From contig NZ_BNBZ01000007.1 in the NCBI RefSeq assembly GCF_014656215.1, positions 124,001 through 188,000 of the forward strand: a stretch of DNA of 64,000 nt, read 5' to 3'. The stretch's first letter is position 1. Each line of letters starts with the position of its first letter. The notes beneath the pieces were generated by a model that was not told the origin of the DNA, ran no database searches, and saw only the letters and a list, made by a program, of their open reading frames with translations. The stretch comes from Streptomyces zaomyceticus. GTDB taxonomy: Bacteria > Actinomycetota > Actinomycetes > Streptomycetales > Streptomycetaceae. Positions 496 through 18,056 of the stretch are shown here, one piece after another. The translations under genes and the position numbers were made by a program.

Positions 496-2034
496 TCAGA
501 ACAGGCTGTTCGCCGCGAAGCGAAGGGCGAACTGCGGGTAACCCGACAGCACGACTCCGGCGGCGGCGGTCAGCGCGATCGCCAGAGTGATCGACACGGG
601 GGCCGTGTGGGGGACGGGGGCCCCGGCCGGTGCCTCCTCCACCGCGCCTTCCGGCGCGCGGAACAGCAGTGCCGTCCAGCGGAGGTAGTAGTACAGCGCG
701 ATCACGACGTTCACGGCCATGACCACGGCCAGCCAGCCGAGGCCCGCGTCGACGGCCGCCGAGAAGACGGTCACCTTGGCGAAGAGGCCGATGATACCCG
801 GGGGCAGACCGGCCAAATTCAGGAGGAAGAACCCGAACGCCAGAGCCGTGGCGGGGCTCGTCGCGTACAGGCCGCGATAGTCCGCGACCCGGTTCCCGGG
901 GTGTCTGCGGGCGACCAGCGCGACGACCGCGAAGGCGCCGAGGTTCACCACCGCGTACATCAGGGCGTACGCGACGGTCGCGCCGATCTGGTCGTCGCTG
1001 GAGTACGCGGCGGCCGCGATCGGCACCAGCAGATAGCCCGCCTGGGCGACCGAGGACCAGGCGAGCAGCCGGACCGCGCTCCACGCGCGCGTGGAGACCT
1101 GGCGGAGGGCGGCCACGTTGCCGGCGGTCATGGTCAGGGCGGCGAGCACCGCGAGCGCCGGACCCCACACGTCCGCGTACGAGGGGAAGGCGACGACCGT
1201 CACCAGGATCAGCCCGGTGAAGCCGACGGCCTTGCCGACCACCGAGAGGTAGGCGGCGACCGGCAGCGGGGCGCCGACGTACGTGTCGGGCACCCAGAAG
1301 TGGAAGGGAACGGCCGCGGTCTTGAAGGCGAAGCCGACGAGGGTGAGGGCCACGCCCGCCTCGGCGAGCGTCTGGAGCTGCCCCGGCACGTCGTCGAGGC
1401 GCTGGGCGAGCTCCGTGAGGTGGAGGGTGCCGGTCGCCGCGTACACGAAGCTGACGCCGAGCAGGGTGACGGCGGTCGCGGTCACCGAGGAGAGGAAGAA
1501 CTTGAGCGCCGCCTCGCCCGACCTGCGGTCGCCGCGCTTGAGGCCGACGAGCGCGAAGGCCGGCAGCGAGGCCACTTCGAGGGCGACGACGAGGGTCGCG
1601 AGGTCACGGGAGGCCGGCAGCAGGGCGGCGCCCGCCGCCGAGGCGAGCAGCAGGAACCAGAACTCGCCGGCCGGGAGCCTCTCCCGGGTCTCCGTCAGCG
1701 ACAGCAGCGCCGTGAGGAGCGCGCCGCCGAGGACGAGCAGCTGGATGACGAGGGTGAAGTGGTCGGCCGTGTAGCTGCACGCCCCCACCCCGGTGTCCGC
1801 GGTGAGGCAGAAGGTGGAGCGGTCACCGGCCCGCAGCGGTACGAGGAGGGCGAGGGCCGCGACGAGGCCGCCGATCGCGGTCAGGCCGAGGAACCGCTTG
1901 TGCTCCTCGGGGACGAAGAGGTCGGCGACGAGCACGACGAGGGCGACCACGGCCGTCAGGGTCGGGGGCGCGATCGTGAGCCAGTCGACGGACTGGACGA
2001 GCGAGTCGCCGGCGAGCGCCGTCACTGGGGTCAT
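496..2034 (-). CDS. nuoN2: NADH-quinone oxidoreductase subunit N, second copy
   Basis: This 512-residue multi-helix antiporter-like subunit belongs to the membrane arm of complex I. The conserved TM5 glutamate is in LVVALEVASLPAFAL and the TM7 lysine in AFKTAAVPFHFWVPD, so the proton channel looks intact. The ATG at 2034 overlaps the nuoM2 stop as ATGA, which sets the start, and the reading frame upstream of it is only a shadow of nuoL2/nuoM2. It is the last nuo gene of the incomplete operon. It is a clear paralogue of nuoN at 44039 but about 40 residues shorter. Confidence 0.95.
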   Translation of the reverse strand: MTPVTALAGDSLVQSVDWLTIAPPTLTAVVALVVLVADLFVPEEHKRFLGLTAIGGLVAALALLVPLRAGDRSTFCLTADTGVGACSYTADHFTLVIQLLVLGGALLTALLSLTETRERLPAGEFWFLLLASAAGAALLPASRDLATLVVALEVASLPAFALVGLKRGDRRSGEAALKFFLSSVTATAVTLLGVSFVYAATGTLHLTELAQRLDDVPGQLQTLAEAGVALTLVGFAFKTAAVPFHFWVPDTYVGAPLPVAAYLSVVGKAVGFTGLILVTVVAFPSYADVWGPALAVLAALTMTAGNVAALRQVSTRAWSAVRLLAWSSVAQAGYLLVPIAAAAYSSDDQIGATVAYALMYAVVNLGAFAVVALVARRHPGNRVADYRGLYATSPATALAFGFFLLNLAGLPPGIIGLFAKVTVFSAAVDAGLGWLAVVMAVNVVIALYYYLRWTALLFRAPEGAVEEAPAGAPVPHTAPVSITLAIALTAAAGVVLSGYPQFALRFAANSLF

Positions 2035-17011: not shown

Positions 17012-18056
17012 GCCCCTCCTCCACCTGGTGCCCAAGGCCGAGGCCCAGCAGACGATGAAGGACTTCAAGTCCGACCAGGAGGTGCGGTGGTGCCCCGGCT
17101 GCGGTGATTACGCGGTCCTGGCCGCCGTCCAGGGCTTCATGCCCGAGCTCGGGCTGGCGAAGGAGAACATCGTCTTCGTCTCCGGCATCGGCTGCTCCTC
17201 CCGCTTCCCGTACTACATGAACACCTACGGGATGCACTCGATCCACGGCCGCGCCCCGGCCATCGCCACCGGCCTCGCCACCTCCCGCCGCGACCTGTCC
17301 GTCTGGGTCGTCACGGGCGACGGCGACGCGCTGTCCATCGGCGGCAACCACCTGATCCACGCCCTGCGCCGCAACGTCAACCTCAAGATCCTGCTGTTCA
17401 ACAACCGGATCTACGGCCTCACCAAGGGCCAGTACTCGCCCACCTCCGAGGTCGGCAAGATCACCAAGTCGACACCGATGGGCTCGCTCGACGCGCCCTT
17501 CAACCCGGTGTCCCTCGCGCTCGGCGCGGAGGCCTCCTTCGTGGCCCGCACGGTCGACTCCGACCGCAAGCACCTCACCGAGGTGCTGCGGCAGGCCGCC
17601 GACCACAACGGCACGGCGCTCGTCGAGATCTACCAGAACTGCAACATCTTCAACGACGGCGCCTTCGAGGTCCTCAAGGACAAGGACCAGGCCAAGGAGG
17701 CGGTCATCCGCCTCGAACACGGGCAGCCGATCCGCTTCGGCGCCGAGAACGAGAAGGGCGTCGTCCGCGACCCGGCCACCGGCGACCTCCGGGTCGTCAC
17801 GGTCACGGCGGAGAACGAGTCGCGGATCCTGGTCCACGACGCCCACGCCGCCACCCCCACCACGGCGTTCGCCCTCTCCCGCCTCGCGGACCCGGACACC
17901 CTCCACCAGACCCCCATCGGGGTGTTCCGGTCGGTGGACCGCCCGGTGTACGACACGTTGATGGCGGATCAGCTGGAGACGGCGGTGGAGCAGCACGGCA
18001 AGGGCGACCTGGGCCAGCTGCTGGCGGGGAACGACACATGGACGGTCGTCGGCTGA
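17004..18056 (+). CDS. korB: 2-oxoglutarate:ferredoxin oxidoreductase, beta subunit
   Basis: This 350-residue subunit binds thiamine diphosphate and a [4Fe-4S] cluster. Candidate ligands are Cys30 and Cys33 (WCPGCGDY), Cys64 (GIGCSSRF) and Cys213 (YQNCNIFNDG). The thiamine motif runs from GDGDALSIGG (106-115) to LLFNN (130-134). It completes the active site with KorA. Both genes form one transcription unit, and a hairpin 28 bases beyond the stop would end it. Confidence 0.94.
   Translation: MPEPLLHLVPKAEAQQTMKDFKSDQEVRWCPGCGDYAVLAAVQGFMPELGLAKENIVFVSGIGCSSRFPYYMNTYGMHSIHGRAPAIATGLATSRRDLSVWVVTGDGDALSIGGNHLIHALRRNVNLKILLFNNRIYGLTKGQYSPTSEVGKITKSTPMGSLDAPFNPVSLALGAEASFVARTVDSDRKHLTEVLRQAADHNGTALVEIYQNCNIFNDGAFEVLKDKDQAKEAVIRLEHGQPIRFGAENEKGVVRDPATGDLRVVTVTAENESRILVHDAHAATPTTAFALSRLADPDTLHQTPIGVFRSVDRPVYDTLMADQLETAVEQHGKGDLGQLLAGNDTWTVVG

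Follow-up and report, generated by a model that had tools for sequence, protein, structure and literature searches.

Complex I without an NADH module is known from cyanobacteria and chloroplasts, where the enzyme (NDH-1) is fed by ferredoxin. In the ferredoxin-fed cyanobacterial enzyme, additional subunits serve to deliver electrons from ferredoxin, and the nuoABCDHIJKLMN set of Desulfitobacterium hafniense likewise comes without NuoE, F and G, with ferredoxin or some other redox partner as its presumed donor (PMC11238625). In Streptomyces, a nuo2 cluster of the same genes as those treated here, with a separate nuoD2, is already in print and is likely expressed as one operon (PMC3765725, PMC8388888), while its function has been called unclear and a hybrid machine has been suggested (PMC9239103). 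Here, we analyse the nuo2 operon in a 64,000-nucleotide stretch of Streptomyces zaomyceticus (contig NZ_BNBZ01000007.1, positions 124,001 to 188,000; hereafter the window), together with the neighbouring korAB genes and a second nuoD elsewhere in the genome. Our reading, to which we give a probability of about two in three, is that Nuo2 is a ferredoxin-fed, proton-pumping complex I of 11 subunits without an NADH module, whose NuoD2, modified by the methyltransferase MidA, would come from a separate locus. This reading is based on the gene set, on the intact cluster ligands, on NuoE and NuoF each occurring once in the genome, on the co-occurrence of NuoD2 with NuoC2 and on the linkage of MidA to NuoD2.

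A Pfam search found ten coupled genes, nuoA2, B2, C2 and H2 to N2, on the minus strand of the window between 496 and 10849:

10415 to 10849, minus strand: nuoA2 (Pfam Oxidored_q4, 106 bits)
9813 to 10424, minus strand: nuoB2 (Pfam Oxidored_q6), with the N2 ligands and the quinone loop PRQADL intact
8152 to 9813, minus strand: nuoC2 (Pfam Complex1_30kDa at residues 29-149 of 553), with a long C-terminal tail
7187 to 8155, minus strand: nuoH2 (Pfam NADHdh, 335 bits), its loop kept in an alignment to a solved NuoH
6576 to 7187, minus strand: nuoI2 (Fer4 domains), with eight Cys for two 4Fe-4S clusters and the N-terminal segment present
5971 to 6576, minus strand: nuoJ2 (Pfam Oxidored_q3)
5588 to 5971, minus strand: nuoK2 (Pfam Oxidored_q2)
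3612 to 5591, minus strand: nuoL2 (Pfam Proton_antipo_M and _N)
2031 to 3608, minus strand: nuoM2 (NCBIfam NDH_I_M, above cut-off)
496 to 2034, minus strand: nuoN2 (Pfam Proton_antipo_M), aligned to NdhB
56986 to 58308, minus strand: nuoD1 of the complete nuo operon (Pfam Complex1_49kDa, 386 bits), with Thr and Tyr at the positions of the NuoD2 Arg and Trp

Each of the ten products scores above the Pfam gathering score of its own family, NuoI2 via its Fer4 domains. The Pfam search of the operon genes returned no D, E, F or G, and nuo2 has no NADH module of its own such as belongs to the 14-subunit NADH:quinone oxidoreductase. A first-pass annotation of the window had described just this ten-gene set without an NADH module, with no space for a lost gene and with all cluster ligands in place, and it was right on each count: neighbouring genes overlap or are 3 nucleotides apart, and the eight Cys in I2 and the CC, C and C in B2 are intact. 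A second, complete nuo operon (nuo1) lies farther along the window, and the nuo2 subunits are 28-52% identical to their nuo1 counterparts.

Additional features of the operon were also recorded. The NuoC2 tail comprises about 390 low-complexity residues (window 8152-9333), and its region holds tandem repeats of 99-102 nucleotides inside 8754-9119, with 76-80% matches. NuoA2 reads A-V-D, by eye, in place of D-x-E, which we take to be the normal NuoA motif. A scan of the nuoA2 region gave zero promoter-like sites and one terminator-like site. Five nuo2 loci from Micromonosporaceae (L117, L119, L134, L157 and L164), as well as L080, show no nuoA2 match in the stretch, and gaps in these loci suggest that other genes were inserted in the operon.

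The missing subunit was found elsewhere in the genome. The first-pass annotation had reported NuoD as absent, which holds for the operon and not for the genome: a whole-genome search for the NuoD family returned, besides NuoD1, a second NuoD of 380 residues on contig C9 (L004:8960-10102), scoring 238.9 bits against PF00346 (cut-off 24). A [NiFe] hydrogenase large subunit was rejected as an identity for this protein, its score of 19.7 against PF00374 falling under the cut-off of 25.8. The same annotation had named a nuoD/E/F/G2 set elsewhere as evidence that would speak against its proposed route from KorAB via ferredoxin to Nuo2. Of that set nuoD2 is indeed present; the genome holds a single NuoF, a single NuoE and two NuoC (NuoG was not among the queries). 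With NuoE and NuoF each encoded just once, the best reading is an enzyme of 11 subunits that is probably fed by ferredoxin.

The distribution of NuoD2 largely follows that of nuo2. We surveyed 121 genomes of the same family and 296 of the class, 268 of them outside the genus of the source genome; all co-occurrence counts and statistics ignore kinship. The cut for NuoC2 was E ~1e-24 and that for NuoD2 was 355 bits plus a partial match in G212, both chosen after viewing the score lists. Within the family, a NuoD2 match of at least 82% identity occurs in 120/121 genomes (in two pieces in G004, shortened in G105) and NuoC2 in 118/121, the exceptions being G015, G010 and G070. The first of these, the only family genome without NuoD2, has a single NuoH and lacks a MidA match as well as NuoC2. 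The other two each carry an additional NuoH, located in G070 at the start of a contig, and therefore nuo2 is taken to be present there, with NuoC2 possibly falling in an assembly gap. Among the 268 class genomes outside the genus, 63 have both proteins, five NuoD2 only, seven NuoC2 only and 193 neither. Even on a shared contig the two genes can be widely separated, by 128 kb in G341 and by 87 kb in G345, and none of the 32 nuoD2 stretches from other families contains a nuo2 operon. In Solihabitans fulvus (L125) nuoD2 directly adjoins nuo2, the sole such case among 80 named nuo2 loci. Separately, L- and M-like antiporter genes, with 39% and 30% identity to L2 and M2, adjoin nuoD2 in L057 (G147) at 4905 and 8196. 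The missing NuoD is largely explained by a dedicated, stray NuoD2. The sharing of NuoD1 with nuo2, which the first-pass annotation had offered as one solution, was dropped and is now unlikely, because this dedicated NuoD2 co-occurs with nuo2.

The neighbourhood of nuoD2 points to a modifying enzyme. About 1.6 kb upstream of nuoD2 in the source genome lies a gene for a PF02636 protein (METHYLTRANSFERASE), whose domain scores 67.2 bits (cut-off 23.3); the protein resembles NDUFAF7/MidA, of which PF02636 is presumably also the family. NDUFAF7 symmetrically dimethylates Arg85 of NDUFS2 (PMC3829151, PMC3750175), an arginine adjacent to cluster N2 in this human NuoD. MidA is present in 30/34 short nuoD2 stretches of the family, in varying orientations, and in 18/20 stretches from other families, one of the two misses (L065) having it ~11 kb away. 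In 44 hand-picked genomes, searched with a single-sequence query that could miss distant PF02636 members, MidA was found in 22/23 genomes with NuoD2 and 0/21 without. The target arginine of the HRG motif is present in all 67 NuoD2 sequences aligned (35 from the family, 32 others), and the corresponding position is threonine in all nine NuoD1 sequences, sampled in nine genomes. Threonine also stands at this position in the NuoD of Thermus thermophilus (PMC3750175). In Yarrowia, the methyl-arginine lies 3.7 A from cluster N2 and replacing the residue removes N2 (PMC8042128), while in Escherichia coli the arginine is present and unmethylated and may contribute to a lower N2 potential (PMC3750175, PMC8042128). 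MidA is likely the dedicated modifying enzyme of NuoD2, on which it would act.

The midA-nuoD2 locus may have conserved neighbours. In the source genome, an open reading frame with repeated GGGWNxYT motifs lies between midA and nuoD2, on the strand opposite to nuoD2 (L004:10270-11588); in L011, midA abuts nuoD2, leaving no room for it. A Rossmann-type protein is encoded near midA both in the source genome (L004:17773-18690) and in family f27 (L069:11547-13294), where a pantothenate-synthetase-like gene is also close by (names assigned by eye).

The first-pass annotation had also suggested a different quinone site, and this is partly borne out. At the position of T. thermophilus Tyr87, termed strictly conserved (PMC8119997), all 67 NuoD2 carry tryptophan and all nine NuoD1 tyrosine. 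Of the quinone-head His and Tyr pair, the source NuoD2 thus keeps His38 and has Trp for Tyr87; His38 is kept in 64/67 NuoD2, and Glu occupies position 139 in all 35 NuoD2 of the family, in the nine NuoD1 and in 16/32 of the other NuoD2. The quinone loops of the neighbouring subunits are kept, as had been noted from the window: PRQADL in B2 and RPPFDMP in H2 (compared by eye). For the proton pumps, whose residue positions in L, M, N and K we assumed from general knowledge, the charged residues that had been called intact are kept in N2 by alignment to NdhB and in L2, M2 and K2 by eye, 4/9 typed motif patterns being unmatched as written.

The proposed source of electrons lies beside nuo2, as had been noted from the window:

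10943 to 14771: a pair of sensor histidine kinases with a PF13796 sensor, and one response regulator of LuxR type, between nuo2 and korAB
14978 to 17011 (start uncertain), plus strand: korA, fused gamma-alpha subunit of a 2-oxoacid:ferredoxin oxidoreductase (Pfam POR_N, POR and PFOR_II; 6n2n)
17004 to 18056, plus strand: korB (Pfam TPP_enzyme_C)

KorAB thus pairs a fused gamma-alpha subunit with a thiamine pyrophosphate (TPP) beta subunit, and the ~4 kb between nuoA2 and korA is taken up by the two kinases and the regulator. An atypical two-component system close to nuo2 has been described as a suppressor of antibiotic production in Streptomyces coelicolor (PMC9239103). A response regulator is reported to be syntenic with nuoABC and korAB (PMC13118837). 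KorAB of Mycobacterium tuberculosis is a working, aerotolerant 2-oxoglutarate:ferredoxin oxidoreductase (KOR) (PMC2773412).

Outside the genus, among the matches listed, korA lies less than 6 kb from nuoC2 in 35/35 genomes with both genes on one contig (median 1.07 kb); such distances cover 41 of the 70 NuoC2-bearing genomes, leaving 29 uncovered. In the family (n=118), korA is less than 12 kb from nuoC2 in 61 genomes, on a different contig in 27, far away on one contig in 23 and without a full-length KorA row in seven. Overall, 233/296 class genomes have a KorA match at E 0.001 or better. NuoC2 occurs without a KorA match in G134 (72% complete), G239, G240 and G345. Further, KorA appears only as fragments in the family genomes G008, G011, G023, G028, G043 and G093, some at contig starts, where loss and assembly gap are indistinguishable, and weaker NuoC2-like genes under the cut lie ~0.6 kb from korA in G361 and G284.

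Taken together, ten subunits from the nuo2 operon would combine with NuoD2 from the separate midA-nuoD2 locus, where MidA would dimethylate the HRG arginine of NuoD2, not NuoD1, stabilising N2 and tuning its potential. Reduced ferredoxin, supplied in part by KorAB from 2-oxoglutarate, would donate to NuoI2, whose two 4Fe-4S clusters would pass the electrons on to N2 in NuoB2 and from there to menaquinone at the modified site, with Trp for Tyr, the electron flow driving the pumps.

Several observations weigh against this scheme. Because the strictly conserved quinone tyrosine is gone, menaquinone reduction may be slow or absent. When weaker, full-length NuoD2-like genes are included, the class table changes to 66 genomes with both proteins, 22 with NuoD2 only, four with NuoC2 only and 176 with neither. 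MidA is missing from 5/12 stretches around the more divergent nuoD2 genes (present in 7/12), and G307 has no MidA match although its NuoD2 keeps the arginine. With regard to the electron source, korA and nuoC2 are on different contigs in six class genomes among the matches listed, and korA is far from nuoC2 in 23 of the 84 family genomes with both on one contig, mainly in genera g3 and g14. Outside the genus, KorA matches occur, by subtraction, in 66/70 genomes with NuoC2 and in 139/198 without, and G015 keeps korAB despite its loss of nuo2.

Since korAB persists without nuo2 in class genomes and in G015, it is independent of any need for nuo2. It is therefore a lesser, though real, possibility that KorAB is an incidental neighbour and that Nuo2 is fed by other ferredoxin- or flavodoxin-reducing enzymes or by F420H2, a view in keeping also with the unlinked korAB of most members of g3 and g14; set against it is the divergent korAB-nuoB2 adjacency, which is maintained in different families and even where the membrane arm has been lost. 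The link between korAB and nuo2 is, as judged from gene order, backed by cross-family synteny but not obligatory. In this regard, the interpretation in the first-pass annotation, a route from KorAB via ferredoxin to Nuo2, is partly supported: adjacency holds in many families, even where nuo2 has three genes, whereas KorA is often found without NuoC2 and is unlinked in several genera of the family.

Another explanation, that Nuo2 subunits swap into the standard complex I, giving hybrids with other antiporters or without the NADH module in which NuoD1 is shared, has been proposed in print for Streptomyces as a hybrid machine (PMC3765725, PMC9239103). We consider it unlikely: nuo2 is patchily distributed and is accompanied by a NuoD2 of its own, the two subunit sets are 28-52% identical, and NuoD2 and NuoD1 differ at the arginine and the tyrosine in every sequence examined.

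Reduced forms of nuo2 bear on both the mechanism and the remaining alternatives. At nine loci from other families (L082-L090), nuo2 consists of B2-C2-I2 only, in genomes that also have D2. KorAB adjoins the trio in eight of the nine, none being shown in L082. Where such a stretch also holds L-, M- and N-like genes, of lower identity, these were assigned to the nearby nuo1 operon, and the nine genomes have one strong NuoH each, with further weak matches in G131 and G307. All nine retain the cluster ligands of B2 and I2 but lack the quinone loop of B2, which was seen in each of the 11 full or intermediate forms and eight nuo1 copies compared ("full" is a label here: L078 and L081 run off contigs and L080 shows no A2 match). 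In all nine, C2 ends 9-60 nucleotides before the I2 core, leaving no room for the N-terminal docking segment of I2 unless the genes overlap. The trios could in principle dock on the nuo1 membrane arm, given the one strong NuoH; this is disfavoured because NuoB has lost its quinone loop and NuoI its docking segment.

In a NuoD tree, the nine reduced and ten unclassified NuoD2 form one side of a branch (support 96/94), and NuoD1 joins on the full side by a branch of 2.25 changes per site. This very long branch leaves the root, and with it the direction of change between full and minimal forms, insecure in the tree. The NuoB loop, common to nuo1 and the full forms, speaks for a derived minimal form. 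Two genomes of one genus differ: the operon is complete in G203, and G270, a single-contig genome, has korAB, B2, C2 and I2, with no A2 or H2, an HtpX-like gene (by eye) directly after I2 and one NuoH in the genome. In G136, korAB, B2 and C2 are followed by the contig end, with one NuoH, and in Microbispora triticiradicis (L174) korAB, B2, C2 and I2 occur without A2 or H2, the contig ending after I2. Compared with G203, the I2 docking segment of G270 has turned Pro/Gly-rich, B2 has PRR for PRQ and NuoD2 is altered around the quinone channel; the ligands, the HRG arginine and the tryptophan are all kept. The ratio of non-synonymous to synonymous change (dN/dS) for B2, C2, I2 and D2 is 0.16-0.40 in this genus and 0.19-0.40 among these three reduced relatives (pairwise, with few changes and not all genes in all pairs). 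Additionally, the single-contig genome G149 (L079:9047-11358) holds A2, B2, C2, I2 and three H2 fragments with the NuoB quinone loop kept, which looks like a membrane arm being lost. In one reduced-form genome, an electron-transfer-flavoprotein-like subunit (by eye) adjoins korB (L087:5312-6097) and is either a candidate partner or there by chance.

Judged from these genomes, the class-wide common core is NuoB2C2D2I2, usually with MidA and near KorAB, and it is the membrane arm that lineages can shed. The reduced set points to working proteins without quinone or pump, a putative soluble, KOR-linked Q-module. We regard it as an even chance that the Q-module (NuoB, C, D and I) was freed from the membrane at least twice in actinobacteria, forming a soluble Fe-S complex with KorAB and usually an NDUFAF7-like methylase, in which the quinone site would be dismantled, the N2/N6a/N6b wiring kept under selection and electrons from 2-oxoglutarate passed to a soluble acceptor; on this view, Streptomyces would have the membrane-coupled version of the same core.

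The armless forms also bear on reverse operation, in which proton-motive force and menaquinol would reduce ferredoxin and KorAB would carboxylate. The same anatomy would serve this direction, and KOR reactions are reversible in other organisms; armless forms, however, keep korAB beside B2-C2-I2, where reduction driven by proton-motive force through an arm of their own is impossible, which makes a reverse Nuo2 improbable. That nuo2 is a decaying duplicate without function is very improbable, the loss of membrane-arm genes in several lineages and the broken H2 of G149 being outweighed by the near-universal NuoD2 and NuoC2 of the family, the low dN/dS and the kept cluster ligands.

The analysis supplies the missing subunit of an enzyme to which the literature assigns no clear function. 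In the accessible portions of the published Streptomyces nuo2 accounts, NuoC2 is absent from the gene list and nothing is said of MidA, of the residues or of a link to KorAB, and a literature search, made mostly outside subscription papers, turned up nothing on the linkage to MidA, on the Arg/Trp signature or on the reduced form. The Arg and Thr paralogues in one cell offer a natural bacterial test of the methylated arginine beside N2. If true, the armless relatives would demonstrate a complex I whose electron-transfer part is viable without a pump, and the findings would bear on the evolutionary assembly of complex I and on how aerobes use low-potential ferredoxin electrons.

Compared with known systems, Nuo2 differs from the D. 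hafniense enzyme in that its NuoD is encoded apart, near a methyltransferase, with Trp for the quinone Tyr, and in that its host also has a full 14-subunit complex I. In contrast to NDH-1 of cyanobacteria and chloroplasts, its NuoD2 lies outside the operon. NDUFAF7/MidA, which methylates an NDUFS2 arginine, is taken to share PF02636 with the nuoD2 neighbour, and NuoD2 carries the matching HRG arginine; unlike that of NDUFAF7, however, the presumed partner of MidA here would be a NuoD paralogue and not the main complex I.

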